Source of the DNA: Prevotella sp.
Lineage (GTDB): Bacteria; Bacteroidota; Bacteroidia; Bacteroidales; Bacteroidaceae
Direction: 5' to 3'
NCBI GenBank assembly: GCA_017449495.1
Contig: JAFTFO010000013.1
Span: 1-35,912, forward strand
DNA: 35,912 bases
The notes beneath the pieces were generated by a model. It was given only the letters and a program-made list of their open reading frames with translations. It searched no databases and was not told the origin of the DNA. Of this stretch, positions 7,501 through 30,165 are shown in pieces. Position numbers and translations under genes: made by a program. Position 1 is the stretch's first letter. The number at the start of each line of letters is the position of its first letter.

Positions 7501-8027
7501 TGACGTATCCGCCCCACCTGGGCGAGGGCAAGCTCTACGGCGCACAGGAGAACGACTTCCACTATTTCCTGGGCTGTGCCTACGAGGCCCTCGGAAAGCA
7601 GGACGAAGCCCGCGAATGCTGGGAGGAAGCCACGAAGGGGCCGCAGGAGCCTGCCGCCGCGATGTACTACAACGACGCCAAACCCGACAAGATATTCTAC
7701 CAGGGACTGGCCCTGCTGAAACTGGGACGCGAGGGCGAGGCCTACGGCCGCTTCTACAAGTTGGCGAACTACGGCAAGCAACATGTCTTCGACCATGTGG
7801 TGATGGACTACTTCGCCGTGTCGCTGCCCGACCTACTCATCTGGGAGGATTCCCTCGACCGCAAGAACGAGATACACTGCAAGTACATGCTGGCCCTCGG
7901 CTATCTCGGACTGGGTGAGCAGGAGAAAGCTGAGCGCTATCTGGCTGAGGTGCGCAAACTCGACATCAACCATCAGGGCATCCAGGCACTCCAATCCTTA
8001 ATTGACTTGAATTTATTTGGAATATGA
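4587..8027 (+). CDS. DUF5107 domain protein with TPR repeats
   Basis: Large protein of 1146 residues without a signal peptide or membrane segment, so probably cytoplasmic. Residues about 40-345 match DUF5107, a beta-rich domain resembling galactose mutarotase-like sandwiches, with conserved-looking stretches LPELGGRIQMAYDK, TGPWISGGIEFNWPQHHRP and FLWWANPAVEVND. From about residue 475 to the end are many tetratricopeptide repeats (for example ALDYYEEALRRDPDD, YFLGCAYEALGKQDEARECWEEA). DUF5107/TPR proteins are found beside sugar transporters in Bacteroidetes PULs, but I know of no established activity. It is 7 bases after the sugar porter, and its stop overlaps the GH35 start (ATGA). A cytosolic sugar- or glycoside-handling role is inferred from its neighbours only. 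Confidence 0.85.
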   Translation: MVKAWREVVTIPTYEVGKPEKNPIFLEKRVYQGSSGAVYPYPVIESISDDKVDKEYKAVWLENEYIKVMILPELGGRIQMAYDKIKQRHFVYYNHVIKPALVGLTGPWISGGIEFNWPQHHRPSTYLPVDCTIVEGEDGSVTVWVNEMERMFHQKGMAGFTLRPGCAYLEIQGRVSNRTSLPQTFLWWANPAVEVNDAYQSVFPPDVNAVFDHGKRAVSSFPIATGTYYKMDYSAGVDISNYKNIYVPTSYMAVNSEYDFEGGYENDTKGGMLHVASHHFSPGKKQWTWGNGDFGRAWDRNLTDQDDKGVFRPYIELMAGVYTENQPDFTWLMPYEEKQFVQYFMPYREIGIVKQASKDLVMNIEEIADCKVEFKILATSKKTVRIILEDLDGIEYYKKVVSLSPEEVLIETAETGNQHLSDLHLFIEDVNNPRMPLLLEWLAEPDEIRPIPDAAEAPLSPKDTKTVDQLYLTGLHLEQYRHATWSALDYYEEALRRDPDDVRCNTQMGLWYLRRARFEKAALYLEKAVKIWKRRNPNPYDGEPLFYLGIVNKYLGSQKTAYDCFWKSTWNKAWADAGYFEAACISISDERWEDALDELERSLISNSHNHKARGMKALVLRKLGRKEEALAWIQESYKIDPFNYVCMVEEYLLTGNKASLEHMVELMHGNIYNYHETALDYAQADQGDEVILVLQTAIDHGVEESPLTYYYLAIYGGTIGDSFRYLEKAKEADPAYCFPNRLEDAYALQAVGMMPSLDARAPYYLGCLYYDKRQYDLAVVCWERSAKIDPDFPTVWRNLALAKFNKSAEEREPETGRINMIADIMADAMQAAVQHLGKDRIMQKKKTAQEEAVEMMERAFHLDESDSRILMELDQLYKRLQKPHAERLAFLQQYPGLIAQRDDLMLEEITLLNQLGRYGEAMAKLDAHQFHPWEGGEGKVPAQYQTARVELAKQAMAAKDYEKAATLLKACLTYPPHLGEGKLYGAQENDFHYFLGCAYEALGKQDEARECWEEATKGPQEPAAAMYYNDAKPDKIFYQGLALLKLGREGEAYGRFYKLANYGKQHVFDHVVMDYFAVSLPDLLIWEDSLDRKNEIHCKYMLALGYLGLGEQEKAERYLAEVRKLDINHQGIQALQSLIDLNLFGI

Positions 8028-10021
8028 GAAGACTACTGTTTACAATCACCTGCCTGACGGGGCTATGCCTGGCATCAGCAGCACAGGTGCCATCCGTCAC
8101 ATGGGACAGGCACAGCCTGATCATCGACGGACGACGCGTCTGTCCAGTCATGGGCGAGGTGCACTATTCGCGCATACCGGCTGATGAGTGGAGCGGCGAA
8201 GTGAGAAAGATGAAAGAGGGCGGCGTCACCGTGATTGCCTGCTATGTGTTCTGGAACCACATCGAGGAGACGGAGGACGTGTTCGACTGGAGCGGTCAGC
8301 GCAACCTGCGCCAGTTCCTGGAGGTCTGCAAGACCGAGGGGCTGCCGGTGGTGCTGCGCGTAGGTCCCTTCTGCCACGGCGAGGTGCGCTGCGGCGGTAT
8401 ACCCGACTGGCTATTCACGAAAGGTTGTAAGATGCGTTCTGAAGACCCCGTCTTCCTGAAACACACCGAAAGGCTTTATCGCCAGATATTCACGCAGGTA
8501 CAGGGCTTGCAGTGGAAGGACGGCGGCCCAGTGATGGCGATGCAGTTCGACAACGAATACCGCGGCCACGGCTCCTACCTGATGGCGCTGAAGAAGATGG
8601 CCAACGAGATAGGCTTCGACCTGCCCTTCTACACCCGCACCGGCTGGCCAGAACTGGCATCGCCCGTACCCTTCGGGGAGATGATTCCCCTTTATGGCGA
8701 CTATGCCGACGGTTTCTGGGAGCGCTCCATCGAAGAGACGGCAGGCAACTACTATAAGGCATTCAACTTCAAGGCCTTCCGCTCATCCACGGCCATCGCC
8801 ACGGAGCAGATAGACTACTCTAAGGAAACGGGAGACAGGAAACAGGAGAATCAGTATCCCTACTTCACCTGTGAGTTGGGAGGCGGCATGATGACAGCCT
8901 ATCACCGCAGGCCCTACCTCTATCCCGAGGATGCCTATTCAATGGCCATCGTAAAGCTGGGTAGCGGCTCCAACCTGCTGGGCTACTATATGTATCACGG
9001 CGGTACGAACCCTGACGGCAAGACATGGCTCAACGAGATGCAGCGCACGCTGGCCACCAACTACAACGACCTGCCCGTGAAGACCTACGACTTCCAGGCA
9101 CCGCTGGGCGAGTTCGGGCAGATCAACCCGCATTACTACATGCTCCGCAAGCTCCACCTGTTTATGCAGGACTGGGGCGACGTGCTGGCACCGATGGAGG
9201 CCACCTTCCCCTGCCAGCAGGACATTCCCAAGGGCGACGACTCTTTCCTACGCTGGAGCATCCGGCAAAAGGACGGCAATGGCTTTATCTTCGTCAATAA
9301 CTACGAGCGCCTGCAGAACCTGACCGCTAAGAAGAACGTACAGTTGGAGGCCTGCGGCGTGAAGTTGCCTACGCTGACCATCCCTGCCGGGGCGATGTGT
9401 GTCTTCCCGGTCAACATCGACGGCATCCGCTATGCCACGGCCCAACTCATTGCCAAGCGCGACGGCAAAATCTATATGGAGCAGGTCAAGGACATCCCCA
9501 CGACCCTCTGCGTGGACGGCAAGACACTCAGGAACCTGAAGCCGAAAGGAACAGGAAAGCCCGTCTATAAAAACATCTACCTGCTGACCAGTGAGGAAGC
9601 AGGACACCTGTTTATCGAGGACGAAAACTCTCAATTTCTCAATACTCTCAATTTCTCCAAGGAGAAAGAAGCAGGTACTCTGCGCACCATCACCATCGGT
9701 GTGAACAAAGTAGCAGAAGAGCCCTCCGACGAGGACTTTGAGCAGGCTGCCATCTATCGGATTCAGATACCACAGCCGTCCCACCATCTGCTCCGCATCG
9801 ACTATCGGGGCGACGTGGCCCGACTCTATGCCAACGGAAAGCTGATAGCTGACAATTTCTATAATGGGCGCCCGTTCCTCTACGGTCTGTGGCGACTGCC
9901 CAAAGATTGCACCGAACTGGAACTCCGCATCCTGCCGCTTCAGAAAGACATGCCAGTCTACTTCCCACGGGAGGCTGACACTACACCTGGCGAACATGTT
10001 AAAAATATAGAAGCATTATGA
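8024..10021 (+). CDS. GH35 beta-galactosidase
   Basis: Predicted exported glycoside hydrolase of 665 residues, probably periplasmic. It has a signal peptide MRRLLFTITCLTGLCLASA-AQ; the Cys is not in a proper lipobox. The catalytic barrel spans about residues 25-370: WDRHSLIIDGRRVCPVMGEVHYSRIP is the usual GH35 opening, E178 in QFDNEYRG is the likely acid/base (most members have QxENEYG) and E284 in TCELGGG the likely nucleophile, followed by YYMYHGGTNPDGK. Beta-rich C-terminal domains follow. The likely job is to remove terminal galactose from RG-I side chains. The start overlaps the preceding stop by ATGA, and its own stop overlaps the next start the same way, so translation is probably coupled. 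A 17-bp tandem duplication lies inside the gene at 9627-9660. Confidence 0.88.
   Translation: MRRLLFTITCLTGLCLASAAQVPSVTWDRHSLIIDGRRVCPVMGEVHYSRIPADEWSGEVRKMKEGGVTVIACYVFWNHIEETEDVFDWSGQRNLRQFLEVCKTEGLPVVLRVGPFCHGEVRCGGIPDWLFTKGCKMRSEDPVFLKHTERLYRQIFTQVQGLQWKDGGPVMAMQFDNEYRGHGSYLMALKKMANEIGFDLPFYTRTGWPELASPVPFGEMIPLYGDYADGFWERSIEETAGNYYKAFNFKAFRSSTAIATEQIDYSKETGDRKQENQYPYFTCELGGGMMTAYHRRPYLYPEDAYSMAIVKLGSGSNLLGYYMYHGGTNPDGKTWLNEMQRTLATNYNDLPVKTYDFQAPLGEFGQINPHYYMLRKLHLFMQDWGDVLAPMEATFPCQQDIPKGDDSFLRWSIRQKDGNGFIFVNNYERLQNLTAKKNVQLEACGVKLPTLTIPAGAMCVFPVNIDGIRYATAQLIAKRDGKIYMEQVKDIPTTLCVDGKTLRNLKPKGTGKPVYKNIYLLTSEEAGHLFIEDENSQFLNTLNFSKEKEAGTLRTITIGVNKVAEEPSDEDFEQAAIYRIQIPQPSHHLLRIDYRGDVARLYANGKLIADNFYNGRPFLYGLWRLPKDCTELELRILPLQKDMPVYFPREADTTPGEHVKNIEAL
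9627..9660 (+). repeat. 17-bp tandem duplication within the GH35 gene
   Basis: ACTCTCAATTTCTCAAT (9627-9643) is followed at once by ACTCTCAATTTCTCCAA (9644-9660): two 17-base units differing near the end. It encodes about residues 535-546 (SQFLNTLNFS) between beta domains. The AT-rich composition differs from the surrounding GC-rich gene, as with the other embedded repeats. Confidence 0.75.
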
Positions 10022-12063
10022 AGAAGTCATTATTAGTTTTAATACTGATTACTTTCCAGTTTTCAGCCTTCACCGCCTTCGCCCAGACGAAGCTGGTGTC
10101 CGTGCTGGGCGACTCGTATTCCACATACGAGGGCTTTGTGACTCCCATCACCAATGAGCTATGGTACTACGCCCAGAACGGGGTGAAGAAAACCGACGTG
10201 AAGAACGTACGCCAGACCTGGTGGCACCAAGTCATAAGCGAACAAGGCTGGCGACTCTGCGTGAACAACTCCTACAGTGGAGCCACCATCAGTTATACGG
10301 GCTACGACGGCAACGACTACTCCGCCCGCTCATTCAACACCCGTATGAACGACCTCGGACAGCCCGACATCATCTTCGTGTTCGGCGCCACCAACGACAG
10401 CTGGGCCGGAACGCCTATCGGTGAGTACAAGTACGAGCAGATCGGCTATGGCGACCTCTACCAGTTCCGTCCGGCAATGGCCTACCTGTTGCAGCGCATG
10501 AAAGAGCGCTATGTGAATACGGAGATCTACTTCCTGCTCAACGACGATCTGCGCGACGAGATTGACGAATCGGTGAAGACTATCTGTGCCCACTATGGCA
10601 TCCCCGTCATCGAGTTGAAAGGCATCGACAAACTCTCCGGCCATCCCTCGGTGAAAGGTATGCGCCAGATAGCCGACCAGGTGGAGGCATTCATAGGTGG
10701 TGGAGCTGCGGGGGAGATAAACGACAACAACACCCCACTCCACCTGATGAAGCCCGACTACCGCTACAACTACGGGGTGGCAAAGGCAGAAAGCGTGAAG
10801 CAGACGATGGACCGCATCCTAAGATATCTTGATGCAGAGACGCCTGCACAACTGGTAGATACGAAGACAGGCGCACCGGTGACCGACTATAAGAAGATCG
10901 ATGCCGACACCCAACTGAAGCAGGGTGGTTTCCGACTGACGAGTTACGAGTGGGGCGTGACCTACTCAGGCGTGCTGGCTGCCTACGAGGCCACGGGCGA
11001 CGAGGCCTACCGCGACTATGTCTACACCCGCCACCGACTGCTGGCAGAGATGGCGCCCTATTTTAATAAGGTGTACGCGAAGAACAGGCAGATCGACGGC
11101 AACGTGCGCCGTGTGATCGACCCGCACGCGCTGGACGATGCAGGGGCCGTCTGCTGCTCGATGATCAAGGCGATGGGCAGCATCTTCCAGGGTGCCGACA
11201 AGGAACTGCGGCGGTTAGTGGACGAGCGCATCCAGAACTACGCCGACTATATTATAAATAAGGAGTACCGCCTCGCCGACGGCACCTTTGCCCGCATCCG
11301 TCCGCAGGACAATACCCTCTGGCTCGACGATATGTTCATGGGGATACCAACGGTAGCCTATATGGGTAAGTATACCGGCGAGGCGAAGTACTACAACGAG
11401 GCAGTCCGTCAGGTGTTGCAGTTTGCCCAGCGGATGTGGGTGCCCGAGAAAGGGCTGTTCCGTCATGGCTGGGTGGAGTCGATGGAGCCCCATCCTGCCT
11501 TCCACTGGGGCAGGGCCAACGGCTGGGCCATCCTCACCATGTGTGAGGTGCTCGACGTGCTGCCGCAGGATCATCCGAAGCGCGGGGAGATTCTGCAACT
11601 GCTGAAGGCCCATGCTGCCGGACTGGCGAGACTACAGCACCACGACGGCTTCTGGCATCAGTTGCTCGATCGTGACGATACTTATTTAGAGGCCTCAGCC
11701 ACAGCTATCTATACCTACTGTCTGGCCCACGCCGTCAACCAGGGCTGGCTCGACGCCAAGGCCTATGGGCCCGTAGCACAGTTGGGCTGGCATGCGGTTG
11801 CGTCGAGTGTCAATGAGAAAGGTCAGGTAGAGCAAGTGTGTGTAGGAACGGGCATGGGCTTCGATCCCGCTTTCTACGCCTACCGCCCCTGTCATGTGAT
11901 GGCAGCTCACGGTTACGGCCCAGTGCTCTGGGCTGGAGCAGAGATGCTGAACCTGTTGAAGCAACAGCATCCTAAGTCGAATGACTCTGCCGTGATGTTC
12001 TACGACCACGAGGTGAATACCGATGCACCGATCTTTAATTATGACGGTAGCATAAAATTCTGA
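10018..12063 (+). CDS. SGNH esterase - GH105 unsaturated rhamnogalacturonyl hydrolase fusion
   Basis: Bifunctional exported enzyme, 681 residues, signal peptide 1-22 (cleaved before QTKLV). The N-terminal SGNH/GDSL domain (about 25-230) has block I GDSYS with Ser33, block II Gly88, block III GATND with Asn126 and His209 in SGHPS; the usual Asp three residues before that His is Leu206. The C-terminal alpha6/alpha6 barrel (about 260-665) is GH105: candidate catalytic acids are D373/D374 in DPHALDDAG and D437/D438 in LWLDDMFMG, with HWGRANGW later. Expected roles are removal of acetyl esters and hydrolysis of the 4,5-unsaturated uronate that PL11 leaves at the non-reducing end. Joining them would couple deacetylation to unsaturated-end removal. 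Last gene of the operon; its stop lies 4 bp from the stop of the convergent PL11 fusion. Confidence 0.87.
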   Translation: MKKSLLVLILITFQFSAFTAFAQTKLVSVLGDSYSTYEGFVTPITNELWYYAQNGVKKTDVKNVRQTWWHQVISEQGWRLCVNNSYSGATISYTGYDGNDYSARSFNTRMNDLGQPDIIFVFGATNDSWAGTPIGEYKYEQIGYGDLYQFRPAMAYLLQRMKERYVNTEIYFLLNDDLRDEIDESVKTICAHYGIPVIELKGIDKLSGHPSVKGMRQIADQVEAFIGGGAAGEINDNNTPLHLMKPDYRYNYGVAKAESVKQTMDRILRYLDAETPAQLVDTKTGAPVTDYKKIDADTQLKQGGFRLTSYEWGVTYSGVLAAYEATGDEAYRDYVYTRHRLLAEMAPYFNKVYAKNRQIDGNVRRVIDPHALDDAGAVCCSMIKAMGSIFQGADKELRRLVDERIQNYADYIINKEYRLADGTFARIRPQDNTLWLDDMFMGIPTVAYMGKYTGEAKYYNEAVRQVLQFAQRMWVPEKGLFRHGWVESMEPHPAFHWGRANGWAILTMCEVLDVLPQDHPKRGEILQLLKAHAAGLARLQHHDGFWHQLLDRDDTYLEASATAIYTYCLAHAVNQGWLDAKAYGPVAQLGWHAVASSVNEKGQVEQVCVGTGMGFDPAFYAYRPCHVMAAHGYGPVLWAGAEMLNLLKQQHPKSNDSAVMFYDHEVNTDAPIFNYDGSIKF

Positions 12064-12067
12064 TGGT

Positions 12068-15000
12068 CTAACGGATGTGCCACTCTTCTTGCCAGTGGAT
12101 CTTGGGGATGCCGTTCTCGAAGGTGATGGGCAGGAACACGTAACCGGCATGGTATACGGCATGGGCGGCATCCACGAGTTTGTATTGGCGATCCACCACC
12201 TGGGGCTCTGTACCGACGGGCTTCTGCGGCTGGGGGGTGTAGTTGGCATAGGAGTCCTTCTTGGCCTCGAAGGTGCGGCGGGCGAAATCGGTGCCGGTGG
12301 TGTGGGGCTCCCAACGGTCGGCAAGGGCTACCCACAGGTCGCTGTCGGGGATGCGGATTACCCCCGTTATCTGTGAGTTGAACGACGAGGCGCAGGAGTC
12401 GCCTACATGGGGATCGCCCAGGATGCGGTATTCGCCATGATAGTCGTCGAACACGGCAACCTCCGTAGGGTTGGAGGTGTAGCCCGTAGTGCCGGATGTA
12501 AAGAGGTAATGCCTGCCGTTGGCAAAGAAGTGGGCGGGTGCCTCACGGGTATGGGGTGGCTTCTGGGCCACGAAGTGGTTGGAGTAGACATCGGTGACGC
12601 CGAGGAAGTCGTCGGTAAGCTCCGCACAGATCAGCTCCCAGTGGGGACGCTCGAACCACACATAGCCCTTGCCCGTCTGCTCGTCTACGTACATATCGAA
12701 ATCGCCCACACCATAACCCTCGGGCTGCAGATTGCGCACAAACGTATAGGGTCCCATGAAGCTGTCAGACTGGAAGATGGCGAAATAGCCGTCTTCTGCC
12801 TGACTCTTAGCCCACAGCACATACTTGCCGTTGCGGGGATGGTGGATGATATGGGGCCGCTCTAACTTCTGACTGTAATGGATGGGCGAAAGCGGATTGA
12901 CGGTGTCTGGCGGCAGTATCAGTCCCTCGTCCTTCCAGTTGTAGAAGTCTCGCGACGAGTAACAGCGCACACCGCCGAACATGCGGTTTGTCCCCAACAG
13001 GGCATCGGCTTTGTTCTCGCCATACCAGTAATAGGTCCCGTCGATGCAAGTAATCTGGAAGCCATGCGCCTGAATAGGCTTGCCATCGGTATCGAGCCAG
13101 ACAGCACCTGGGCGGACTGAGTTGTAAGTGACTGGTTGCATGGGCACCTCCTGCACACTGACGTATTGAGAGGGTTCACCACGCTGCGCCACCTTCACGG
13201 GCTGCTGCCGGTCTGTATTGTTTAGTCCGAAGATGTTCACCACGCTACAGCCATCGAGCGTCAGGATGCTGTCTTCTGAATGGATCTGAACATCTTTCAA
13301 GGCAAAGCCCGTGACATCCTGCACCTTTCCGATGCGCTCGCACCTGACCGTAGCATTGCCGAAGAACACATTCTTGACGGGCAGCTCCGGCTGACCTGTA
13401 AAGCTGATGAAGTCGCGGCAGTTCTCAACGATCACGTCGTGAACTGAAATATCGTGGAAATAAGGTGTAAACCTTGTGCGCTCGGGCTTGGGGAATCGCT
13501 GTGCCAGCGCGCCCATCCACTTAGTTTCGCCAAGCAAGTCGCAGTAGAAAGCCTGATACTTCACGTCGGCCCGCACGCGCTCTACAAAGTAGTTCGCTAT
13601 GCCACCGCCACGTGTGCGACGACTCTTTACGCGGAAAGCCTGATCGGTGCCTTGGAACACGCAGTCGTGGCAATACACATTCTTGACGAACCCTGCCACC
13701 TCGGTACCACAGACGATTCCGCCAGCACCACGAAGTGCCAGGGAGTGGCGCACGACGACATTCTCCGTAGGACGGTTAACACGCAGACCATCCCAGCCAC
13801 GACCGGACTTCATCGTGTAGCAGTCGTCCTGACAGTCGAGCGAACAGTATTCTATCAGCACATTCTTCGATGACTCCACATCGATGCCGTCGGTACGACC
13901 ATGCCCGAAACTGTTCACCGTCACGCCACGGATGATGACATTCTCGCAATACTGCGGCACCACATTCCAGTAGAGTCCTTGGGTCAGTGTGACACCCTCT
14001 ATCAGCACGTTCGTGCAGTTGATGGGCGCAACGGTCTTGGGCAGGAACACCTCTTTGGTCTTGATGCCGTCGTAGTGGCGCGACTCCAAGGGCAGCTCAC
14101 CAACGATCATCTCGATATTCAGGCAGTATTCCTTGTTCTGCTGGTATATCTCGCAGTCCGTCGAGGGCCCGACGATCTCGCCCTTGCCCGTCAGCGCGAT
14201 GTTCTGCTCCCCGTTCGCATAGATAAATGCCCCTAAGCTGTATATCTCGATTCCCTCATCGCGAGTGAACACGATGGGCTGGTAGTCGGCAATCTCTCCG
14301 CTGAAGAGCAGTCGGCACCCCTCCGCCAGGTGTAGGTTGATGTTCGAACGCAGGGTGATGCGCCCCGTCAGCCAGTCGCCTGCCGGGATGATCACCGTGC
14401 CGCCGCCCTGCTTGGCCAGTTGGTCGATAGCCTGCTGAATAGCCTTGGTGGCGATACCCTTGTTAGGCATTTTTACTGTCACCGTGCGTTCCGGGAACAC
14501 AGGACGCTGCAATTGCGGCATCTCGAACGGCGCCTTGATAGGGGCAATCTCTTGCGGCATAACCTTCGGCCCAACCTGCTCAAGGGTAGGAGTCAGTAGA
14601 CTGGGGGCGAGCTTATCTTTCAGCTCGGCGCCGAGGTAGAAGCCGGGCTCGGAGGGTTGGTTGTAGCCGACGTTCTGGGCGGCGGTGGAGAGACGGTAGG
14701 GGATATCCTCCATCAGGCAGTTGAGGCGGTAGTCGGTGGGGATGGGCGAAACGAAGATGCGTAGCTCGTCGCTATCGGGCGTGCGGGCTATCACCTCTTC
14801 GCGCCAGTCGCCCAGGATGTCGGCAGCGAGGCAGGGGTTAGACTTCGTGCCGTTGTTGAACACGATGCCATCAAACTTCACGACGTCAACGATCGTGTGG
14901 TTCACCCAGTCGTATTTGGCGACCGTCTCGTGGTCGAGGAGTTCGCGCAGCAGGTCGCCGTCCCACCAGATGCCGAAGTTGACGGAGAGGTAGCGGTCGC

Positions 15001-16537
15001 CGAGCTTCAGGTGCTGCTGGTGCTGTGGGTCGTCGGGATCGGTAGCGGTATAGAGTACCTCGCCCTTGATGTTTCGGATGCCGTGACTGTCGGTGCTCCA
15101 CATCTCCAATCCAGGGTTAGTGGGGTCTATATCAGCAGCCATAGCACGACCGACATCACTCGTTGAGGGTATCTGGAAGATCACCTCGCCGGTGCGGGCA
15201 TTGCGGAAATCGCTGCCATCGCGTTTGTTCTCGTGGCAATCCCAAACCTGGAGTTCTTCAGATGCGGGATCGAAAGCCATCAGATGGATGGCATCACCGT
15301 GACCCATGCCCGTGTTATAGAGTCCGCGGCCATCGTGATCGACGGCCATCGAGCCATAGGTGATCTCGTCGCAGCCATCCCCATCGACATCGGCCACGCG
15401 CAGGTTATGGTTGCCCTGACCGGCATAGCTTGCCCACACGGGATCGTTGGTGTCGAACACCCAGTGCTGTTTCAGTTCCCGACCGTCCCAGTCCCATGCA
15501 GCCAGAACGGTACGGGTGTAATAGCCTCGACAGAAGATGGCCGATGCACGTACGCCGTCGAGATAGCCCACGGCAGCCAGCATACGGTCGGAGCGGTTGG
15601 CATAGTTATCGCCCCATTCGCTCAGGTTGCCACGCTCGGGGATATAGGGCTGGGTGTCCATAGCGCGGCCCGTCAGACCGTCGAACACGGTGATGTACTC
15701 ATTGCCGGTGAGGATGCGGCCCGTCATCGGGCGGCCTGGTCTATTATATTTTCCCCACTCTTTCTGCGGCGTCGGTTCCTGGGTGTCAGGTGTCGGACGA
15801 TGGCGGTAGTCGGCAAGGGGGTCGCCTATCACCTGCCCTACTCCATCGCGAGTGCCGTCGGAAGTACGGACGATGAACTCAGCCCGTCCGTCGCCATCGA
15901 GGTCATAGAATATAAAAGGTACGTAGTGGGCACCGCTGCGGATATTGATGCCCATATCGATACGCCAGAGCATGGTACCGTCGAGACGATAGCAATCGAA
16001 GAGGGTGTTGCCGGTATAGCCGTCGTGGGCATTGTCGTGGGCGTTCGAGGGGTCCCACTTCAAGACGATCTCATACTGTCCATCGCCATCCACATCGGCC
16101 ACCGAAGCATCGTTGGCAGAATAAGTATAGGTCTGTCCGTCGGGAGTCGTGCCGCCTTCGGGCTTCTGTAACTTTACCGCCAGGTAGCCCTCCGGGGCGT
16201 TGGCCTTCAAGACGAAAGAACCATTCTTGCCGCCACCGCGCACTTCGTAAACGGCATCAACAGCCAGTGGATGCTCGTCTACAAAGAATGTTCCGCCACT
16301 CATGAGCTTCGTTTGGTTCAGTTTCTTTCCATTGCGATACACATCGAACGCCTCGCCCTTGGCATCGGCAGACAACGAACGCCAGCTGACGACCACCTTG
16401 TTCTCACTGCGAAAAGCCACCACGCCGCGATCCAGCCGCTCGTGCTGAAGTTTCGACATGTCATAACGAGGCTGTGCCGTCGCAAAAGCAGTAAAAAGCA
16501 AAGCCATTATAAACAATGTACACTTTCTCATCTTCAT
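12068..16537 (-). CDS. Trimodular PL11 - GH28 - GH43 RG-I degrading enzyme
   Basis: One uninterrupted 1489-residue frame with a single signal peptide (1-21, MKMRKCTLFIMALLFTAFATA). Residues about 25-640 are a full PL11 rhamnogalacturonan lyase: repeated DVDGDG calcium-type motifs, RSDRMLAAVGYLDG, GQGNHNLRVADVDGDG, ending SEPGFYLGAEL. A Pro-rich linker (about 641-690) leads to a GH28 beta-helix (about 690-1115) with D883 in GRTDGID, D904/D905 in CQDDCYTMKSG, CGTEVAG and RVKSRRTRGG. From about 1137 to the end is a GH43 five-bladed propeller (LDTDGKPIQAHG, TYYWYGENKA, ERPHIIHHP, EAPAHFFANG, SQITGVI), closest in look to the exo-beta-1,3-galactanase-like subfamilies. The last two modules have no signal peptide of their own, which argues against internal starts. 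The protein would cut the backbone by elimination and hydrolysis and trim a branch, probably in the periplasm. A promoter and a candidate HTCS site lie upstream. Confidence 0.9.
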   Translation of the reverse strand: MKMRKCTLFIMALLFTAFATAQPRYDMSKLQHERLDRGVVAFRSENKVVVSWRSLSADAKGEAFDVYRNGKKLNQTKLMSGGTFFVDEHPLAVDAVYEVRGGGKNGSFVLKANAPEGYLAVKLQKPEGGTTPDGQTYTYSANDASVADVDGDGQYEIVLKWDPSNAHDNAHDGYTGNTLFDCYRLDGTMLWRIDMGINIRSGAHYVPFIFYDLDGDGRAEFIVRTSDGTRDGVGQVIGDPLADYRHRPTPDTQEPTPQKEWGKYNRPGRPMTGRILTGNEYITVFDGLTGRAMDTQPYIPERGNLSEWGDNYANRSDRMLAAVGYLDGVRASAIFCRGYYTRTVLAAWDWDGRELKQHWVFDTNDPVWASYAGQGNHNLRVADVDGDGCDEITYGSMAVDHDGRGLYNTGMGHGDAIHLMAFDPASEELQVWDCHENKRDGSDFRNARTGEVIFQIPSTSDVGRAMAADIDPTNPGLEMWSTDSHGIRNIKGEVLYTATDPDDPQHQQHLKLGDRYLSVNFGIWWDGDLLRELLDHETVAKYDWVNHTIVDVVKFDGIVFNNGTKSNPCLAADILGDWREEVIARTPDSDELRIFVSPIPTDYRLNCLMEDIPYRLSTAAQNVGYNQPSEPGFYLGAELKDKLAPSLLTPTLEQVGPKVMPQEIAPIKAPFEMPQLQRPVFPERTVTVKMPNKGIATKAIQQAIDQLAKQGGGTVIIPAGDWLTGRITLRSNINLHLAEGCRLLFSGEIADYQPIVFTRDEGIEIYSLGAFIYANGEQNIALTGKGEIVGPSTDCEIYQQNKEYCLNIEMIVGELPLESRHYDGIKTKEVFLPKTVAPINCTNVLIEGVTLTQGLYWNVVPQYCENVIIRGVTVNSFGHGRTDGIDVESSKNVLIEYCSLDCQDDCYTMKSGRGWDGLRVNRPTENVVVRHSLALRGAGGIVCGTEVAGFVKNVYCHDCVFQGTDQAFRVKSRRTRGGGIANYFVERVRADVKYQAFYCDLLGETKWMGALAQRFPKPERTRFTPYFHDISVHDVIVENCRDFISFTGQPELPVKNVFFGNATVRCERIGKVQDVTGFALKDVQIHSEDSILTLDGCSVVNIFGLNNTDRQQPVKVAQRGEPSQYVSVQEVPMQPVTYNSVRPGAVWLDTDGKPIQAHGFQITCIDGTYYWYGENKADALLGTNRMFGGVRCYSSRDFYNWKDEGLILPPDTVNPLSPIHYSQKLERPHIIHHPRNGKYVLWAKSQAEDGYFAIFQSDSFMGPYTFVRNLQPEGYGVGDFDMYVDEQTGKGYVWFERPHWELICAELTDDFLGVTDVYSNHFVAQKPPHTREAPAHFFANGRHYLFTSGTTGYTSNPTEVAVFDDYHGEYRILGDPHVGDSCASSFNSQITGVIRIPDSDLWVALADRWEPHTTGTDFARRTFEAKKDSYANYTPQPQKPVGTEPQVVDRQYKLVDAAHAVYHAGYVFLPITFENGIPKIHWQEEWHIR

Positions 16538-16554
16538 TTAGTGTTAGTCGGCTA

Positions 16555-16562
16555 CAAAAATA
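16555..16562 (-). promoter_or_regulatory. -7 promoter element of the PL11-GH28-GH43 gene
   Basis: The minus strand reads TATTTTTG, a match to TAnnTTTG, 17 bases upstream of the ATG at 16537. The candidate HTCS operator at 16592-16601 is 29 bases further upstream. Confidence 0.65.
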
Positions 16563-16591
16563 CACCATGCAGAACGACATTTCATAGCAAT

Positions 16592-16601
16592 ATCGTTCAA
16601 A
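16592..16601. promoter_or_regulatory. Candidate HTCS operator, PL11-fusion/HTCS intergenic
   Basis: ATCGTTCAAA on the plus strand. The same ten bases occur at 26359-26368 upstream of susC, in the same orientation and at the same 29-base gap from the -7 element. It lies between the divergent promoters of the PL11 fusion and the HTCS gene, so it could also serve autoregulation. Confidence 0.5.
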
Positions 16602-16639
16602 AATCAATACTTTTTTTCGTCATTTCCAAAATAATGTTG

Positions 16640-16647
16640 TATTTTTG
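16640..16647 (+). promoter_or_regulatory. -7 promoter element of the HTCS gene
   Basis: TATTTTTG followed by CACC, 21 bases before ATG 16669. This placement excludes the in-frame TTG at 16645 as the translation start, because that codon is part of the promoter. Confidence 0.65.
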
Positions 16648-16668
16648 CACCCTGTAACAACTAACAAC

Positions 16669-19600
16669 ATGAACTTACGACTACTACACCTGTCTATTCT
16701 GCTGGTCCTGAGTGGCCTGGCGGGCGCACAAGAACAGCTACTCACCAACAGCCGGCATATCAGCACTGCCGACGGGTTACCCTGCAACCAAGTGTTCGAC
16801 ATGCAGCAAGATGCCGACGGATACATCTGGCTGGCGACGGCTAACGGACTGAGTCGCTACGACGGCTACAAGTTCCTGAACTTCTACGACCTCGGCACCA
16901 GCGGCATGCACGCCGTGCTCGGCTATGTGATGCCCGACGCCAACGGCCGTCACCTCTGGATGCAGACCTCCACCTATCTCTTTGCCTGCTACGACATGGC
17001 CGACGGGCGCTTCGTGGACTTCACGGGACGGGGCGACGACCAGCACGCCTACCGTAAGTATGCCACCGACGACCTCGGAGTGATGTGGATGTTCGACGAT
17101 GAGTCGGGCGTCCGCCGTGTCAAAGCCTCTGCCGACGGCACATTCAGTTGTATAGACTACACGAAGGAGCAGGGCACCCTGCCCACCAACCACGTGAACG
17201 ATGCCCAGAGAGACGGTGACGGACGGCTCTGGGTGATGACCACCGGTGGACTGACCATCATCGACCGTGAGGGCAAGGCCCGCACCATAACCACAAAGGC
17301 CGGTTTCCGCAAAGCCATCGTGAACGACAATCAGGTACTGACGATGACCACTAACCAGGAGATCATCATCTATGACAAGACAGGACGCGAACTGAAGCGC
17401 AAGCCATTTACCGACCATGTACCGGTGATCACCGGCAGCTTCATCTGGCACGGTATCTGGACGATCCTGACACAGGGCGGCACCTTCCGCGTTGACCCTG
17501 CCGACGGTTCACTCAGACCCACGAGACACTTCCAGATCAACCGAGGCTATGTGATGCGTATGTCCGACGATGTCGTGTTCGTGAGCAACCCCACCGGCAC
17601 ACTCTGGGTGTTCCCCGCCCAGGGCGACGAACGGCAATACAACCTGATGGACGGCGTGGAGTCGACAGTAGACCGTATGCGCCGGTATAATGTCGCCCAA
17701 GGCAGCGACGGGCTCTACTACATCGCCAGCCACGGCAACGGACTCTTCGTCTACGACCTGGAGCACGACCACATGACCCACTACTCCGCCACCAGCAAGG
17801 CGCCCCTTCTGGGCAGCAACTTCCTGAACAACATCCTCATAGACCGTAGCGGTTGCATCTGGCTCGGCGAGGAGCTGACAGGACTGAGCTGCATCCTGCC
17901 CCCGACGGGACTGAAGACTGACTACCTCTACCCCATGCCCGGACAGCAGGGCAACTGGAACAACTATGTGCGCATGATCCATCAGAACGATGACGGTAGC
18001 GCCACCCTGAGCACCCGCGACAACAACCTGTACCGCTTCTCGCCTCTTCACTCCACACTTCTCACTCCACTTTCCTCTCACCACTCCGCGACCGTCTACG
18101 CCGAGCTGAAAGACCGGAAGGGACACGTCTGGCGAGGCACCCGAGGCGGCGGATTGTTCATTGACGGTCAGCATAAGGACTTTCCCTCACAGCATATCTA
18201 TACCATCACCGAGGACAAGCAGGGCCGCATTTGGATAGGCACCTGGGGCGAAGGGCTCTTCATGACCCGTCTGAACAGCGATGGTACACTTGACTACCGA
18301 CAGCTGATGAAGCAATCCTACAACGAGAGTCTGATACGCCGTGTGGAGACCGATTGCGACGGCACCATCTGGATAGCCTCGAACAATGGCGTCTACAGTA
18401 TCGCCCCAGGGAAAGAAGAGGTCACCGACGACGACCTGACCAGCTCGAACATGAAGAACGAGCGTCTGCCCTTCGACGAGATCATCAGCCTCGTCTGCAC
18501 CAACGACGGCCATATCTGGTTAGGCAGCCGAGGCGGAGGACTGCTCCGCTGCAAGCCCAACCAAGGACAACTCGACGTGGAGAAAACCTTCACCACCCAC
18601 GACGGTATGGCGAGCAACAACATCTATTCAATGGTGGAAGACCTTCACGGCAACCTCTGGGTAGGCACTGACAACGGCATCTGCCGCATCAGTCCCAGCA
18701 TGAAGGTGAACAGCTACCTCTTCGGACAGACCACACAGAGCAATATCTACACCGAGAACTGCGCCACGATGCTCAGCGACGGGCGGATGCTCTTTGGCAC
18801 CATCGACGGCCTGATGGTACTCACCCCTACCGCTACCGACACTATCGCCACCGACAAGGAGCCCACACCCATTATCACCTCCGTCAGCATCAACGGCATC
18901 AGCCAATACCTGTCACCAAGGAACCACAGCCTGACAGTCGCCCACGACCAGAACTCGCTGATACTCCATTTCTCATGTCTCGACTACGACGACCTCAACT
19001 CCACCCAATACCAATACCGTATGGAGGGCATCGACCGCGACTGGCTACCCCTGACGAGTGAGCACCAGGCCCACTACAACGGTCTGCGCCCAGGCACCTA
19101 CCGCTTCCGTCTACGCGCTCTGGGAAAGTATAACCAATGGAGTCAGGAGAGCCTGTTTACCGTCGTCATCCGTGAGCCTTGGTATAACACGTGGTGGGCC
19201 TGGCTCATCTACCTGACCGCCATCGGCCTGTTAGCGTGGTACTTCTATAGAGCCTGGCGCCGAAACTTCGAACTCCACCAACAGATACGCGTAGAAAAGG
19301 AGCTGACCACCTTCCGTCTGAACTTCTTCACCCATATCGCCCATGAGTTCCGTACACCGTTGGCCATCATCTCCGGCGCTGCCGACAAGCTGACACAGAA
19401 GACGGGCGACCAGCAGGTGTCACGATCAGCCGTACAGACGGTGCGCCGGGGCACGATGCGACTCTCCAAGCTTGTGAACCAGCTCATGGAGTTCCGTCGC
19501 ATCAACACAGGCAACCAGCGGCTGGGCGTCGTCGAAGCCGACATCGTCAAGCTGTGTCGCGCCACCTGCGATGAGTTCCGCGACCTGTCGGAACACCGCC

Positions 19601-20865
19601 AGCAGCAGCTCACCTTCACCCCCTTTGCCCATCAGCATACGATGACGTTCGACCCACACCTCATAGAGACCATCCTCTATAACCTGTTGAGCAACGCCGT
19701 GAAGTACACCCCCAAGGGAGGCAGCATCAGCCTGAGACTACGGCAGGACGAGGCGAGCCAACAGATACAACTGATCGTAGAAGACACAGGCCCCGGCATC
19801 AGCCCCCAGCAGATACCACAATTGTTCCAACCCTTCATGCACGGTTATGTGTCGCAGGGCGGCATGGGCATCGGCCTTTACACCGCCTATCAGTCAGCCC
19901 TGCTACACAAGGGAAGCCTGAGCTACCAGCGCATCTCCGACGAGGGAGGATCACGATTCACAGTGACAATCCCTGCCACCGATACCGTCTACAGTTCTGA
20001 AGACCACGCCGGCACCACTGCCGTCAACACCGCCTCTCTCCATGATCAATTGTCAATTGTCAATTCTCCATTATCAATTGTCAAAGACCTCGTGCCAGAA
20101 GCTTACAACGACCTGACCGTCGCCATCATCGAAGACGATCCCGACATGCTCGACCAGATACGCGACTCCATAGGCCGTTACTTCCACACCGACAGCTATA
20201 CCGACGGGCAGTCAGCCCTCACAGGCATCAGAGCGAGCCACCCCGACATCATCCTCTGCGACGTCATGCTACCCGACATCAACGGATTTCAGATTGTCCG
20301 TCAGTTCCGCTCCGACCAGGAACTGCCCCCGATACCCATCATCATGCTGACAGCCCTCGACGGCGATGACCAGCTACTGCGCGGCTATAAGGCCGGAGCC
20401 GACGACTATATGGTAAAGCCCTGCAACTACGAGTTGCTCATCCTGCGCATCACCCAACTCATCAAGTGGTACGGCCATCATCACCGGGATTCTCAATTGT
20501 CAATTGTCAATTCTCAATTGTCAATTGTCACCGACGAAGCCGACCAGCGGTTCAAGTATAAGATGGAGACCTTCGTTGCTCAGCACTTAGGCGACCCCAC
20601 ATTTAATGTCGACACGCTGGCTGCCATGCTTAAGATGGGACGCACCAAGTTCTACGGTAAGATGAAGGAGTTTACAGGCATGTCGCCCAACACCTACCTA
20701 CAGACCGAGCGTCTGAAGAAAGCCGCTGACTTGCTGATTGAGGGCGACCTGAACGTGACCGAGATCAGCTATAAGGTAGGATTCCAGTCGCCGACCTACT
20801 TCTATAAGTGCTTCAAAGAGAAGTACGGCGTTCCGCCCAGCAAATACGGCAAACAAAAGTCATAA
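16669..20865 (+). CDS. Hybrid two-component system regulator (HTCS)
   Basis: Single-protein sensor and transcription factor of 1398 residues. Signal peptide 1-20 (LSGLAGAQ). A periplasmic double beta-propeller (about 25-740) has many Reg_prop repeats of the type DGYIWLATANGLSRYDG and GHIWLGSRGGGLLR. A Y_Y_Y domain spans about 760-835, with one membrane helix after it (WAWLIYLTAIGLLAWYFY, about 842-862). The histidine kinase has phospho-acceptor H892 in HIAHEFRTPL, an N box NLLSNAVKYTP and a G box EDTGPGIS. A receiver domain has phospho-acceptor D1198 in LCDVMLPDING, and a C-terminal AraC helix-turn-helix covers about 1300-1395. It should bind an RG-I oligosaccharide in the periplasm and activate the SusCD, PL11 and CE12/GH2 units. 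ATG 16669 is chosen because an upstream in-frame TTG lies inside the -7 element. Simple DNA repeats encode parts of the propeller and both cytoplasmic linkers. Confidence 0.93.
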   Translation: MNLRLLHLSILLVLSGLAGAQEQLLTNSRHISTADGLPCNQVFDMQQDADGYIWLATANGLSRYDGYKFLNFYDLGTSGMHAVLGYVMPDANGRHLWMQTSTYLFACYDMADGRFVDFTGRGDDQHAYRKYATDDLGVMWMFDDESGVRRVKASADGTFSCIDYTKEQGTLPTNHVNDAQRDGDGRLWVMTTGGLTIIDREGKARTITTKAGFRKAIVNDNQVLTMTTNQEIIIYDKTGRELKRKPFTDHVPVITGSFIWHGIWTILTQGGTFRVDPADGSLRPTRHFQINRGYVMRMSDDVVFVSNPTGTLWVFPAQGDERQYNLMDGVESTVDRMRRYNVAQGSDGLYYIASHGNGLFVYDLEHDHMTHYSATSKAPLLGSNFLNNILIDRSGCIWLGEELTGLSCILPPTGLKTDYLYPMPGQQGNWNNYVRMIHQNDDGSATLSTRDNNLYRFSPLHSTLLTPLSSHHSATVYAELKDRKGHVWRGTRGGGLFIDGQHKDFPSQHIYTITEDKQGRIWIGTWGEGLFMTRLNSDGTLDYRQLMKQSYNESLIRRVETDCDGTIWIASNNGVYSIAPGKEEVTDDDLTSSNMKNERLPFDEIISLVCTNDGHIWLGSRGGGLLRCKPNQGQLDVEKTFTTHDGMASNNIYSMVEDLHGNLWVGTDNGICRISPSMKVNSYLFGQTTQSNIYTENCATMLSDGRMLFGTIDGLMVLTPTATDTIATDKEPTPIITSVSINGISQYLSPRNHSLTVAHDQNSLILHFSCLDYDDLNSTQYQYRMEGIDRDWLPLTSEHQAHYNGLRPGTYRFRLRALGKYNQWSQESLFTVVIREPWYNTWWAWLIYLTAIGLLAWYFYRAWRRNFELHQQIRVEKELTTFRLNFFTHIAHEFRTPLAIISGAADKLTQKTGDQQVSRSAVQTVRRGTMRLSKLVNQLMEFRRINTGNQRLGVVEADIVKLCRATCDEFRDLSEHRQQQLTFTPFAHQHTMTFDPHLIETILYNLLSNAVKYTPKGGSISLRLRQDEASQQIQLIVEDTGPGISPQQIPQLFQPFMHGYVSQGGMGIGLYTAYQSALLHKGSLSYQRISDEGGSRFTVTIPATDTVYSSEDHAGTTAVNTASLHDQLSIVNSPLSIVKDLVPEAYNDLTVAIIEDDPDMLDQIRDSIGRYFHTDSYTDGQSALTGIRASHPDIILCDVMLPDINGFQIVRQFRSDQELPPIPIIMLTALDGDDQLLRGYKAGADDYMVKPCNYELLILRITQLIKWYGHHHRDSQLSIVNSQLSIVTDEADQRFKYKMETFVAQHLGDPTFNVDTLAAMLKMGRTKFYGKMKEFTGMSPNTYLQTERLKKAADLLIEGDLNVTEISYKVGFQSPTYFYKCFKEKYGVPPSKYGKQKS
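18046..18087 (+). repeat. CACTCC-type repeat within the HTCS propeller
   Basis: A pyrimidine-rich stretch with three imperfect units around TCACTCCAC (18048-18056, 18062-18070, 18077-18087), about 14-16 bases apart. It encodes about residues 460-473 (LHSTLLTPLSSHHS), which breaks the regular propeller pattern and looks like a loop extension. Confidence 0.6.
20046..20084 (+). repeat. TCAATTG repeat in the HTCS kinase-receiver linker
   Basis: Three copies of TCAATTGTCAA-type sequence (starts near 20046, 20053, 20074) with TCAATTCTCC between them. It encodes QLSIVNSPLSIVK, residues about 1127-1139, between the histidine kinase and receiver domains. The same motif recurs at 20491-20530 in the next linker. 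Confidence 0.8.
20491..20530 (+). repeat. TCAATTG repeat in the HTCS receiver-HTH linker
   Basis: Four copies of TCAATTG are visible (from 20493, 20500, 20514 and 20521) with one TCAATTC between the pairs. It encodes SQLSIVNSQLSIV, residues about 1275-1287, between the receiver and the AraC-type DNA-binding domain, nearly the same peptide as in the previous linker. Confidence 0.85.
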
Positions 20866-20960: not shown

Positions 20961-23063
20961 TTAATAGCCAGGATTCTGCCATGCCTTCTTCTGAGCATCA
21001 GAGAGGTCTGAGCCATCCTCATTCTTCAAGCCATCGATGAAAGTCTGTGGAATAGGACGATAGATGTGACGATCCTGAACATTAGGAGCAGCCTCTGGAT
21101 TAAAGGCCTTTGCACGAGCTACAAGAGTCTTTGTACGAGAAAGAGTCTCCCAGCGCTGCCACTCACCAATCAACTCACGAGTACGCTCGTTGAGGATAAA
21201 ATTAATAGCACGCTCCTGCTGACCACTGACTCCGAGTTTGGATAGAATTGCCTCATCCTCTGCAGGAAGATTATTCCAATCCCAATTAGTCAAGTCTGAA
21301 GCATCTGTAGTAACAGGCTGATCAGGATTTGACAGATAATAGGTGTTGATCCAAGGATTAGAGTTTTCATACATAGCCTGGTTGGCTGCATAAAGACCAT
21401 TACTGATCTCAAATGCTTTTGAACCATCCACATAGTAGGAGCGGTTCTCTCCGTTCTTCCATTGAGCACGAGCACGGATGATATTGATGTCTGCCTTAGC
21501 AGCATCATAATTACCCAAACGAACATTGCACTCTGCGCGGATAAGATAAGTCTCTGCCAGACGAGCCATCGTCACATCACGATAGGCATCACCCTTCTCT
21601 GCCTGACGGGTGCCGTCAGTACACTTATTGATACCAGCGAAGAAGTTACAAACAGCAGTACTTTTGAAATTTGGAGCTACATACTCTCCATTCTGATAGA
21701 GGACCGATGAACTGGGGACCCAAGTACCAGCCTTGCTGACAAGTTCACCAGATGTTTCAGTCTGACGATTATCGCCCTTCCACTCAGGTAGACGACCTGC
21801 ATCATCTGAGAAATTCGAATTCTGTGCATAAGCACCAAATGTGTAACCATCATAGGTATGGTCGTCCTTTGTGTTGAGAATCATAATGGCACCAGGAGCA
21901 CCAAGTTCCACGCCTAAAGTGTCCTTAACAATAGTATTGATACCATAGACAGTCTTGAAAGTCTTCCACAGACGAGCATCGTTTACATGGTCATAAGCAG
22001 CATAGGTGTACTCCGTTGGACGGCAACGCTGGAAGTCCATCTCACCTGTCCAAACACCACGCTTTGTCCAGCCACCACCAAAACCAGCACCAAACTGCGG
22101 GCCAAAGTAGTTATAAGTACGGTTACCGAAACGACCTTGAGTAGCACTATTGTTATTGAAGCCAGCAGCCATCAATATCTCGCTCAACTGTTCTGTCTCA
22201 CAGTCCACACCAGTCCACTTAGCATAGAGATCAGCATAATCAGGAGCTAGGGTACGGGCATTAATTGCATAGTTACATGCTTCGACAGCCTCCTTCAAAT
22301 CAGCCTCTTTGGTGGCACTATTGAAAGCCTCACAACGTTCAGAAGCACGGAACAGAAGTGCCTTTGCCAAGAAGTGTGCAGCTGTAGCCTTCGTCCAAGT
22401 AATACCCTTCCCGTATGTAAACTCCTCACCCTTGAACAGATTGTAAGCCTGACGGAGGTCACTAATCACCTGCTCCCAAGCTTCCTCTTCTGTGGCCTGT
22501 GTGAAGTTGCGAACAACATCAGTAACGGGAGTGGTCTGTATCACAGGACGTCCATACTGGGCTGTCAGACGATAGTAGTTATAACCACGAAGGAAGTATG
22601 CATGAGCCAGACAGCGATTACGAACTTCAGAATCAGAGATGACACTCTCAGCCTTATCAATAATCGTATTACAGGATGCTATACCATAATAGAGTTCATT
22701 CCACAAAGCATCAATGGCTGGGCAGTTGTTGTTAGCTGCGCCTAATGCTGTCGTACAGTTCATTGGTTGGAAACGTGTGTCATACGTATTCCAGGGCTCA
22801 CTGGTCAAGTCGTTAGCATTGGTGAACTCATCAGTACCATAAAGTGTAATACCATAAGCCCACTCATAACCGAAATGCCAACGGAGATTACCATAAAGGG
22901 ATACTGTGAGTGCTTCAAGACCCTCTGGGGTATCGAAATACTGGGTCGAATATTTAGTAGTCAGATCCTCATCAAGGAAATCACTTGAACAAGAGGACAT
23001 CCCTACAGTCATTGAAACTGCCAGCAGACCACCTATAATATATTTACTAATTTTCATATTCAT
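20961..23063 (-). CDS. SusD/RagB-family surface glycan-binding lipoprotein
   Basis: Outer-membrane lipoprotein of 700 residues that works as the lid and glycan receptor of the SusC pore. The signal peptide ends in a lipobox GMSSC, with Cys25 as the lipidated residue. The following SSDFLDED is acidic, as in Bacteroidetes lipoprotein export signals, so surface exposure is likely. SusD features include TPR-like helices near the N-terminus (CLAHAYFLRGYNYYRLTAQYGRPV) and the C-terminal pattern AINFILNERTRELIGEWQRWETLSRTKTL...YRPIPQTFIDG. Start chosen at 23063 (MNMKISKYI); MKISKYI at 23057 is equally possible, and the longer upstream frame has no signal peptide. It starts 28 bases after the susC stop. 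AT-richer than the enzyme genes. Confidence 0.93.
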   Translation of the reverse strand: MNMKISKYIIGGLLAVSMTVGMSSCSSDFLDEDLTTKYSTQYFDTPEGLEALTVSLYGNLRWHFGYEWAYGITLYGTDEFTNANDLTSEPWNTYDTRFQPMNCTTALGAANNNCPAIDALWNELYYGIASCNTIIDKAESVISDSEVRNRCLAHAYFLRGYNYYRLTAQYGRPVIQTTPVTDVVRNFTQATEEEAWEQVISDLRQAYNLFKGEEFTYGKGITWTKATAAHFLAKALLFRASERCEAFNSATKEADLKEAVEACNYAINARTLAPDYADLYAKWTGVDCETEQLSEILMAAGFNNNSATQGRFGNRTYNYFGPQFGAGFGGGWTKRGVWTGEMDFQRCRPTEYTYAAYDHVNDARLWKTFKTVYGINTIVKDTLGVELGAPGAIMILNTKDDHTYDGYTFGAYAQNSNFSDDAGRLPEWKGDNRQTETSGELVSKAGTWVPSSSVLYQNGEYVAPNFKSTAVCNFFAGINKCTDGTRQAEKGDAYRDVTMARLAETYLIRAECNVRLGNYDAAKADINIIRARAQWKNGENRSYYVDGSKAFEISNGLYAANQAMYENSNPWINTYYLSNPDQPVTTDASDLTNWDWNNLPAEDEAILSKLGVSGQQERAINFILNERTRELIGEWQRWETLSRTKTLVARAKAFNPEAAPNVQDRHIYRPIPQTFIDGLKNEDGSDLSDAQKKAWQNPGY

Positions 23064-23091
23064 TGCAGTTTTTATAATGATAAATAATTCT

Positions 23092-27604: not shown

Positions 27605-27653
27605 GGATAATAGGTTGGAATACGGTCACATGGATTGTCCATAAAATATGAAA

Positions 27654-27663
27654 ATCGTACAAT
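27654..27663. promoter_or_regulatory. Candidate HTCS operator between CE12 and the GH2 operon
   Basis: ATCGTACAAT, a one-base variant over the first nine bases of the motif at 16592 and 26359. On the minus strand it reads TTGTACGATTTT, matching TTGAACGATTTT upstream of susC. It lies 49 bases from the CE12 -7 element and 49 bases from the GH2 -7 element, midway between the divergent promoters. Confidence 0.4.
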
Positions 27664-27712
27664 TTTGCTAATAACAGAACGAATGGATAGGCTCTGGCTG
27701 GGAGAAGATACG

Positions 27713-27720
27713 TATATTTG
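27713..27720 (+). promoter_or_regulatory. -7 promoter element of the GH2-GH105-GH106 operon
   Basis: TATATTTG followed by CAGCG, 19 bases before ATG 27740. It lies inside the upstream extension of the GH2 reading frame and so decides the start. Confidence 0.65.
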
Positions 27721-27739
27721 CAGCGACAAAGTAAAAAAG

Positions 27740-30160: not shown

Positions 30161-30165
30161 GAGAT

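Follow-up and report, generated by a model that had tools for sequence, protein, structure and literature searches.

A PL11-GH28-GH43 fusion gene in an RG-I locus of Prevotella

Rhamnogalacturonan lyases of family PL11 and glycoside hydrolases of families GH28 and GH43 appear to be encoded by a single gene in this Prevotella locus, which raises the questions of whether the fusion is genuine, how it arose, and what the joining of three enzymes would contribute to RG-I breakdown. In an earlier note on this DNA, the gene product was described as one secreted polypeptide made up of enzymes that are normally encoded by separate PUL genes, and was proposed to be a processive or channelling machine. 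We followed up these claims computationally, using "the window" for the whole stretch of 35,912 nucleotides that was analysed.

One frame with three catalytic modules

The gene extends over positions 12068-16537 on the minus strand, begins with ATG, and contains 1489 codons with no internal stops; plus frame 1 over the same interval has many stops. The claimed chain of three enzymes behind a single signal peptide is therefore present in the assembly as one open frame of 1489 codons. Pfam matches, all above their cut-offs, were obtained for RGI_lyase (residues 31-100), RGL11_C (118-643), GH28 (832-982), and GH43 (1162-1370), and homology extends the last two modules to approximately residues 656-1090 and 1131-1489. 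Alignments show that the main catalytic residues are kept in PL11, GH28, and GH43 alike, with one change in the GH43 active site, from Trp to Tyr. No second, internal signal peptide was seen by eye in the fusion protein. The observation of a PL11-GH28-GH43 gene is confirmed in the sequence, and the join is known from one draft assembly (2.24 Mb, 47 contigs, 68% complete). The parts of the gene are as follows.

16475-16537, minus strand: signal peptide (residues ~1-21) of the Sec type without a lipobox, read by eye
14624-16447, minus strand: PL11 rhamnogalacturonan lyase module (residues 31-638), from Pfam RGL11_C (694 bits) and RGI_lyase and from PDB 4cag, YesX, and YesW
14573-14623, minus strand: junction (residues 639-655), from comparison with unfused PL11 frames and GH28-GH43 relatives
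13268-14572, minus strand: GH28 module (residues 656-1090) with D883, D904, and D905, exo-galacturonidase-like, from Pfam, NCBIfam, and alignments
13148-13267, minus strand: GH28-GH43 connector (residues 1091-1130), from connector lengths across relatives
12071-13147, minus strand: GH43 module (residues 1131-1489), from Pfam and alignment to subfamily-24 structures

The first module is a predicted RG-I lyase and a full-length PL11, since its match covers positions 1-488 of the 490 in the RGL11_C profile, at 694 bits against a cut-off of 27. Its solved relatives are 4cag, YesX, and YesW. The available text of PMC8787155 lists the Ca-binding and substrate residues of the B. ovatus PL11 lyase Bo3128, and their counterparts in the window protein (H377, H413, D415, E436, R464, K565, and Y625) are all present, as placed through the YesW alignment and the spacing of the Bo3128 residue numbers, Bo3128 itself being outside the alignment. 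The module carries an insertion at the same position as one in YesX, while YesW and 4cag are without it. In 69 of the 79 PL11 rows measured, from a set of 83, this insertion has the same length as in the window.

The GH28 module matched its Pfam model with 53.1 bits against a cut-off of 22.9. D883, D904, and D905, previously named as its catalytic set, stand at these positions, coincide in the alignment with acidic motifs in 5olp and 3jur, and are invariant in 13 of 13 aligned sequences, window included. The best NCBIfam model was that of the BT4155 alpha-galacturonidase (NF049892), at 234 bits against a curated cut-off of 800, which makes the module a relative and not a member of that family, with a predicted activity only. 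Because both this model and 3jur, an exo-polygalacturonosidase, point to exo-acting galacturonidases, the earlier description of the module as a backbone hydrolase is unsupported in the endo sense.

The GH43 module, with 45.9 bits against a cut-off of 32.2, has 6eug, 6euf, 5flw, and 7bys as solved relatives and is nearest to the subfamily-24 exo-beta-1,3-galactanases. The catalytic acid, unusual Gln base, Glu-Arg pair, and Asp described for subfamily 24 in the available text of PMC7939473 are all found on alignment to 7bys and 6eug: E1332 as the acid, Q1389 as the base, E1226 and R1227 at the C-4 hydroxyl, and D1279 as the modulator. Trp229 of subsite -1, however, is replaced by Tyr1353, and Tyr occurs at this position in 13 of 13 aligned sequences, window included. 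The position of Tyr126, also of subsite -1, falls in a gap of the 7bys alignment, and some relatives have His in place of Y1251 close by. Owing to the change at Trp229, we do not assign the module to subfamily 24, and its substrate may differ from beta-1,3-galactan. With the BT4155 score far under its cut-off as well, both hydrolase modules may act on substrates other than those of their models.

The RG-I locus and the junction

The gene is surrounded by the following features.

593-2131, minus strand: short GH106-like rhamnosidase
8024-10021, plus strand: GH35 (beta-galactosidase family)
10018-12063, plus strand: GDSL esterase-GH88/105 fusion, tail-to-tail with the fusion gene
16645-20865, plus strand: HTCS hybrid two-component regulator, part of a conserved SusC-SusD-HTCS-PL11 block
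20961-23219, minus strand: SusD, glycan importer
23092-26274, minus strand: SusC, glycan importer
27635-30160, plus strand: GH2, start from a mechanical ORF
29551-31275, plus strand: GH88/105, start from a mechanical ORF
31301-33781, plus strand: GH106, start from a mechanical ORF

SusC, SusD, HTCS, PL11, GH28, two GH88/105, two GH106, GH2, GH35, and two GDSL proteins occur together here, as expected of an RG-I locus, and the fusion protein qualifies as a multicatalytic PUL enzyme, with at least two catalytic modules on one chain in a PUL and an N-terminus that indicates export. SusC and SusD (20961-26274) have a GC content of 0.45 and a GC3 of 0.41-0.43; the corresponding ranges for the remaining PUL genes (integrase excluded) are 0.53-0.58 and 0.60-0.76, a difference that perhaps reflects a separate origin or a different constraint. 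A tyrosine recombinase/integrase with an Arm-binding domain (34176-35501, plus strand, GC 0.435) borders the PUL on the right, so the PUL may be part of a mobile element or adjoin one.

The order SusC-SusD-inverted HTCS-PL11 is common to the window and to loci L045, L049, and L180, and SusC-HTCS-PL11 is found in L042. Beyond PL11 these loci diverge: GH88/105 is fused to it in L045, GH35 in L049, and nothing in L180 and L042. As the block is conserved up to PL11 and the downstream partner varies, PL11 seems to be at home at this site and GH28-GH43 to be the newcomer. The GH88/105 half of the neighbouring gene at 10018-12063 shares 74% identity with the fusion partner of PL11 in L045, suggesting that one enzyme family has switched from one partner to another.

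In a redundant set of unfused, short-tailed PL11 frames, 69 of 74 run on GFYLG-PD and then stop, with FLK or YLK directly before the stop in at least 66. The GH28-GH43 relatives open, as read by eye, with a signal-like stretch followed by V-GP. The window junction reads GFYLG-AELKDKLAPSLLTPTLEQV-GP; that is, the PL11 tail and stop have been replaced and the second signal is absent, with both domains intact. In trees, the GH28 module groups with those of L062 and L035 and the GH43 module with that of L035, both inside the GH28-GH43 clade. An internal start yielding a separate GH28-GH43 protein was considered and rejected, since no signal peptide is seen by eye after the join and such a product would remain cytoplasmic.

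We consider it probable (roughly 0.6) that the gene is a genuine and fairly recent fusion, in which an older GH28-GH43 protein was placed behind PL11 at the home of the latter to give a Sec-exported, likely periplasmic, tethered trio for RG-I. The two-enzyme protein would have arrived directly downstream of PL11 in the RG-I locus; once the stop of PL11 and the signal peptide of the pair had disappeared, the whole trio would be led by the signal peptide of PL11. The proposal that GH28 and GH43 would depend on that peptide for export agrees with what is seen in relatives, in which the free-standing pair has its own signal-like start, lacking in the window copy.

Fusions of PL11, GH28, and GH43 in relatives

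The domain order was sought, as had been proposed, and no other protein with that order was found in the genomes sampled. A GTDB scan, which requires an exact peptide seed, confirmed 110 stretches, of which 79 loci were kept; none held a second PL11-GH28-GH43. Nor, at the E-value limits used, did the genus samples (398 genomes searched for the pair and 398 for PL11), the order sample (393), or the family sample (349). L066 and L103, in which the contig ends right after PL11, were left out of the fusion judgement. Most named relatives from the scan belong to Prevotella or other Prevotellaceae, and many are ruminant-derived by record title. Neither PL11 joined to GH28 or GH43 nor the terms GH28-GH43 or GH43-GH28 were found in the literature searched. 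The exact order, not found elsewhere in these searches, thus appears new; its parts are ordinary, and multicatalytic PUL enzymes are already known, such as CE6-CE1 and CE1-CE1 in the available text of PMC8040265.

The view that these enzymes are normally separate holds for PL11 as against the other two, and fails for GH28 as against GH43, which form a standing two-module protein in relatives. Eight named loci encode GH28-GH43 as a single protein (L036-L039, L041, L061, L064, and L079; frames of 850-906 aa), Bacteroides oleiciplenus among them, and by eye these proteins have their own signal-like start. The pair also lies inside a GH106 fusion in L035, and in L062 it ends at the contig end. In the genus sample of 398 genomes it was found in the window genome, G173, and G176, in the last behind GH106, and in the family sample of 349 in three others (G1010, G944, and G1024), G1024 being assembled as a single contig of 5.6 Mb. 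The proteins of G173 and G1010 are identical to those of L036 and L038 and so add no evidence. The order sample (393) held no further fused GH28/GH43 pair at the limit used.

The reversed order, GH43-GH28 in one frame, was found in 15 of the 398 genus genomes and in two more of the family sample (349), 17 in all; in G166 of the genus sample the modules lie in separate frames and stops are present. In the GH28 tree with outgroups, the reversed proteins are nested within the GH28-GH43 clade (99/97, and 98/94 for its Prevotella part), with L036 and L037 as neighbours (94/85). In the GH43 tree, weakly rooted because its outgroup L228 is very distant, the GH43 modules of the reversed proteins form a separate group (98/97) together with the free GH43 of L036. 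In L036, the GH28-GH43 gene and this free paralogue directly behind it together occupy 10019-13751. The simplest reading is that the pair was apparently fused twice, in opposite orders. The connector measures 40 aa in all but one of the 13 distinct GH28-GH43 proteins, the exception being L173 with 18; in the reversed proteins it is 10 aa long in 14 of 18 (the rest being 9, -2, -6, and the out-of-frame G166), with connector ends extrapolated from alignments. Such constancy suggests a rigid GH28/GH43 pair. Single-frame proteins containing GH106 were also seen, namely GH28-GH43-GH106 in L035 (9911-15604, 1898 aa), GH106-GH28-GH43 in L173 (461-5371, 1637 aa), and GH106-GH43 in L174 (3343-7638, 1432 aa). 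In L018, L136, L137, and L177, GH28 is fused to a short GH106-like domain; the window carries a free short GH106 at 593-2131.

The PL11 search of 398 genus genomes, with E up to 1e-200, gave a close match in 72, with a frame of at least 1000 aa in seven (window included) and a shorter one in 65. The partners in the seven are GH28-GH43 (window), Mala_s_1-like plus DUF362 (G244 = L040), GH88/105 (G362 = L045, and G025), GH35 (G242 = L049), GH5 (G351), and GH43 with an F5/8C domain (G033), to which the GTDB scan adds GH115-PL11 (L111). A quick tree was made of 83 PL11 rows with at least 58% identity to the window, from which short, duplicate, and partial rows had been dropped. All eight fused rows lie in one clade of 39 (SH-aLRT 100), in which 30 of the 38 judgeable rows are unfused, L066 being cut at a contig end; the other 44 rows, among them L103, likewise cut, show no fusion. 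The combination of PL11 with a Mala_s_1-like domain and DUF362, an odd pectin-lyase partner, was observed at 1392-5375 of L040 and at 19748-22534 of L035, where it is cut by the locus edge. L067 (2287-6969) encodes a distant PL11 (33% identity) with about 950 extra residues that have no Pfam match at E 0.001.

That every PL11 fusion differs, with changing partners at either end, and that most rows of the clade and 65 of the 72 genomes have PL11 on its own, would fit a short-lived or nearly neutral event, in which the joined trio performs no better than separate enzymes and such fusions come and go in the clade. Against this, the GH28/GH43 pair was apparently fused twice in opposite orders and retained in many genomes, its connector lengths are constant, and most partners suit RG-I or pectin breakdown, although the fit is not obvious for GH5, GH115, and DUF362. 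On balance a neutral fusion is unlikely. A further-reaching idea, which we find rather unlikely, is that the RG-I loci of one rumen Prevotella clade serve as a fusion workshop, in which enzymes of consecutive steps are joined repeatedly in changing orders and combinations. If so, the GH28/GH43 pair would have been built twice, once in each order and each time with a fixed connector, and the window protein would be a rigid composite of lyase, galacturonidase, and galactosidase working on one RG-I branch point.

Export, tethering, and relation to known systems

Under the preferred reading of a tethered trio, the place of action has to be considered. The term secreted, as used in the earlier note, is appropriate for Sec export, to which the N-terminus points, and not for an extracellular location: no lipobox is seen, and no profile match to a T9SS tail was obtained on the fusion protein. 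The product is thus most likely periplasmic. A simple pattern likewise found no lipobox in 82 of 85 PL11 frames, a set in which some genomes occur twice. The exported protein would act on RG-I fragments brought in by SusC/SusD. Its PL11 module would cleave the Rha-GalA backbone by beta-elimination into short unsaturated pieces, from which the GH28 module would take off terminal galacturonic acid and the GH43 module beta-galactose side groups. Tethering could then provide equal amounts, joint export, and closeness of the three enzymes with no obligatory channel.

In a processive or channelling machine, the active sites would be arranged to hand one chain or product on from one to the next. The constant connectors suggest a fixed geometry and leave some room for this view. 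The flipped GH28/GH43 order in 17 genomes and the changing, unrelated partners of PL11 among close relatives, however, argue against a fixed three-step channel, and GH28 and GH43 both resemble exo enzymes that work at chain ends or side chains. The channelling proposal is therefore unsupported, and we regard it as quite improbable.

A draft genome may also contain neighbouring genes fused by a wrong deletion or a chimera, and the join is indeed seen in one assembly only, in 47 contigs and 68% complete. However, it is in frame, its domains are whole, and exactly one stop and one signal peptide are missing relative to relatives. There are no repeats of at least 20 bases in 12000-17000 (seed 14), and the junction occurs as a single copy in the source genome. 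Moreover, analogous PL11 fusions are found in the strain-titled records of Prevotella sp. MA2016 (L045) and P6B1 (L049), so that an artefact is highly unlikely. As for base composition, GC3 is 0.70, 0.72, and 0.75 in the PL11, GH28, and GH43 modules and 0.53 in the 17-codon linker. Taken over 60 codons at a time, it varies along the gene between 0.57 and 0.90, and at the join it declines from about 0.85 to 0.63; as comparable drops occur inside the modules, these values do not decide for or against a foreign seam, and the idea of a foreign segment at the join was set aside. Cleavage after export at the linker of residues 639-655, with the fusion securing joint export only, is least probable of all: this segment is short, has basic residues, and is seen in the window protein alone, but no processing signal is apparent by eye and the GH28-GH43 connector is conserved in length, unlike a cleavage linker.

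The single three-enzyme order is of less use than the series of alternative fusions around it. The same enzymes are fused, unfused, and fused in reverse in close relatives, and this natural series makes it possible to test on matched proteins whether closeness, geometry, or joint export is the benefit of tethering. The fusion protein itself is a candidate single-protein tool for RG-I pectin.

In the RG-I pathway of B. thetaiotaomicron, as given in the available text of PMC8002723, RG-I is cut at the outer membrane by a lyase, and the imported pieces are finished in the periplasm by lyases, an esterase, GH28 enzymes, a GH106 rhamnosidase, galactosidases, and galacturonidases; the window locus shares enzyme kinds with it (GH106, GH88/105, GH2, GH35, and esterases). 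The stand-alone PL11 lyases (4cag, YesX, YesW, and Bo3128 of B. ovatus) resemble the window protein over the whole length of PL11 and in their Ca and substrate residues, but in the window the C-terminal tail and stop are replaced by two further enzymes. Multi-domain PL11 proteins are described in the available texts on Teredinibacter (PL11-CBM35-CBM2, PMC12055684) and Acetivibrio (Doc-CBM35-PL11, PMC12037645), in which the partners are non-catalytic. The Bacteroidetes esterases BoCE6-CE1 and DmCE1B, as presented in the available text of PMC8040265, likewise combine more than one catalytic domain in a single exported PUL protein, but they act on xylan and have two or three esterase domains. Closer to the window are the GH28-GH43 proteins of Bacteroides and Prevotella (the eight named loci and G1024), with the same order, a 40-aa connector, and 60-72% identity, which differ in having their own signal-like start and no PL11. 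The three-enzyme proteins of L035 and L173 are built on the same pair, with a rhamnosidase as the third enzyme, at either end. Finally, PL11 fusions close to the window protein (75-84% identity, in frame) carry other partners, in PL11-GH88/105 (L045 = L148; L008 = L162), PL11-GH35 (L049), PL11-Mala_s_1-like-DUF362 (L040 = L181), GH5-PL11 (L176), GH115-PL11 (L111), and GH43-F5/8C-PL11 (L009).
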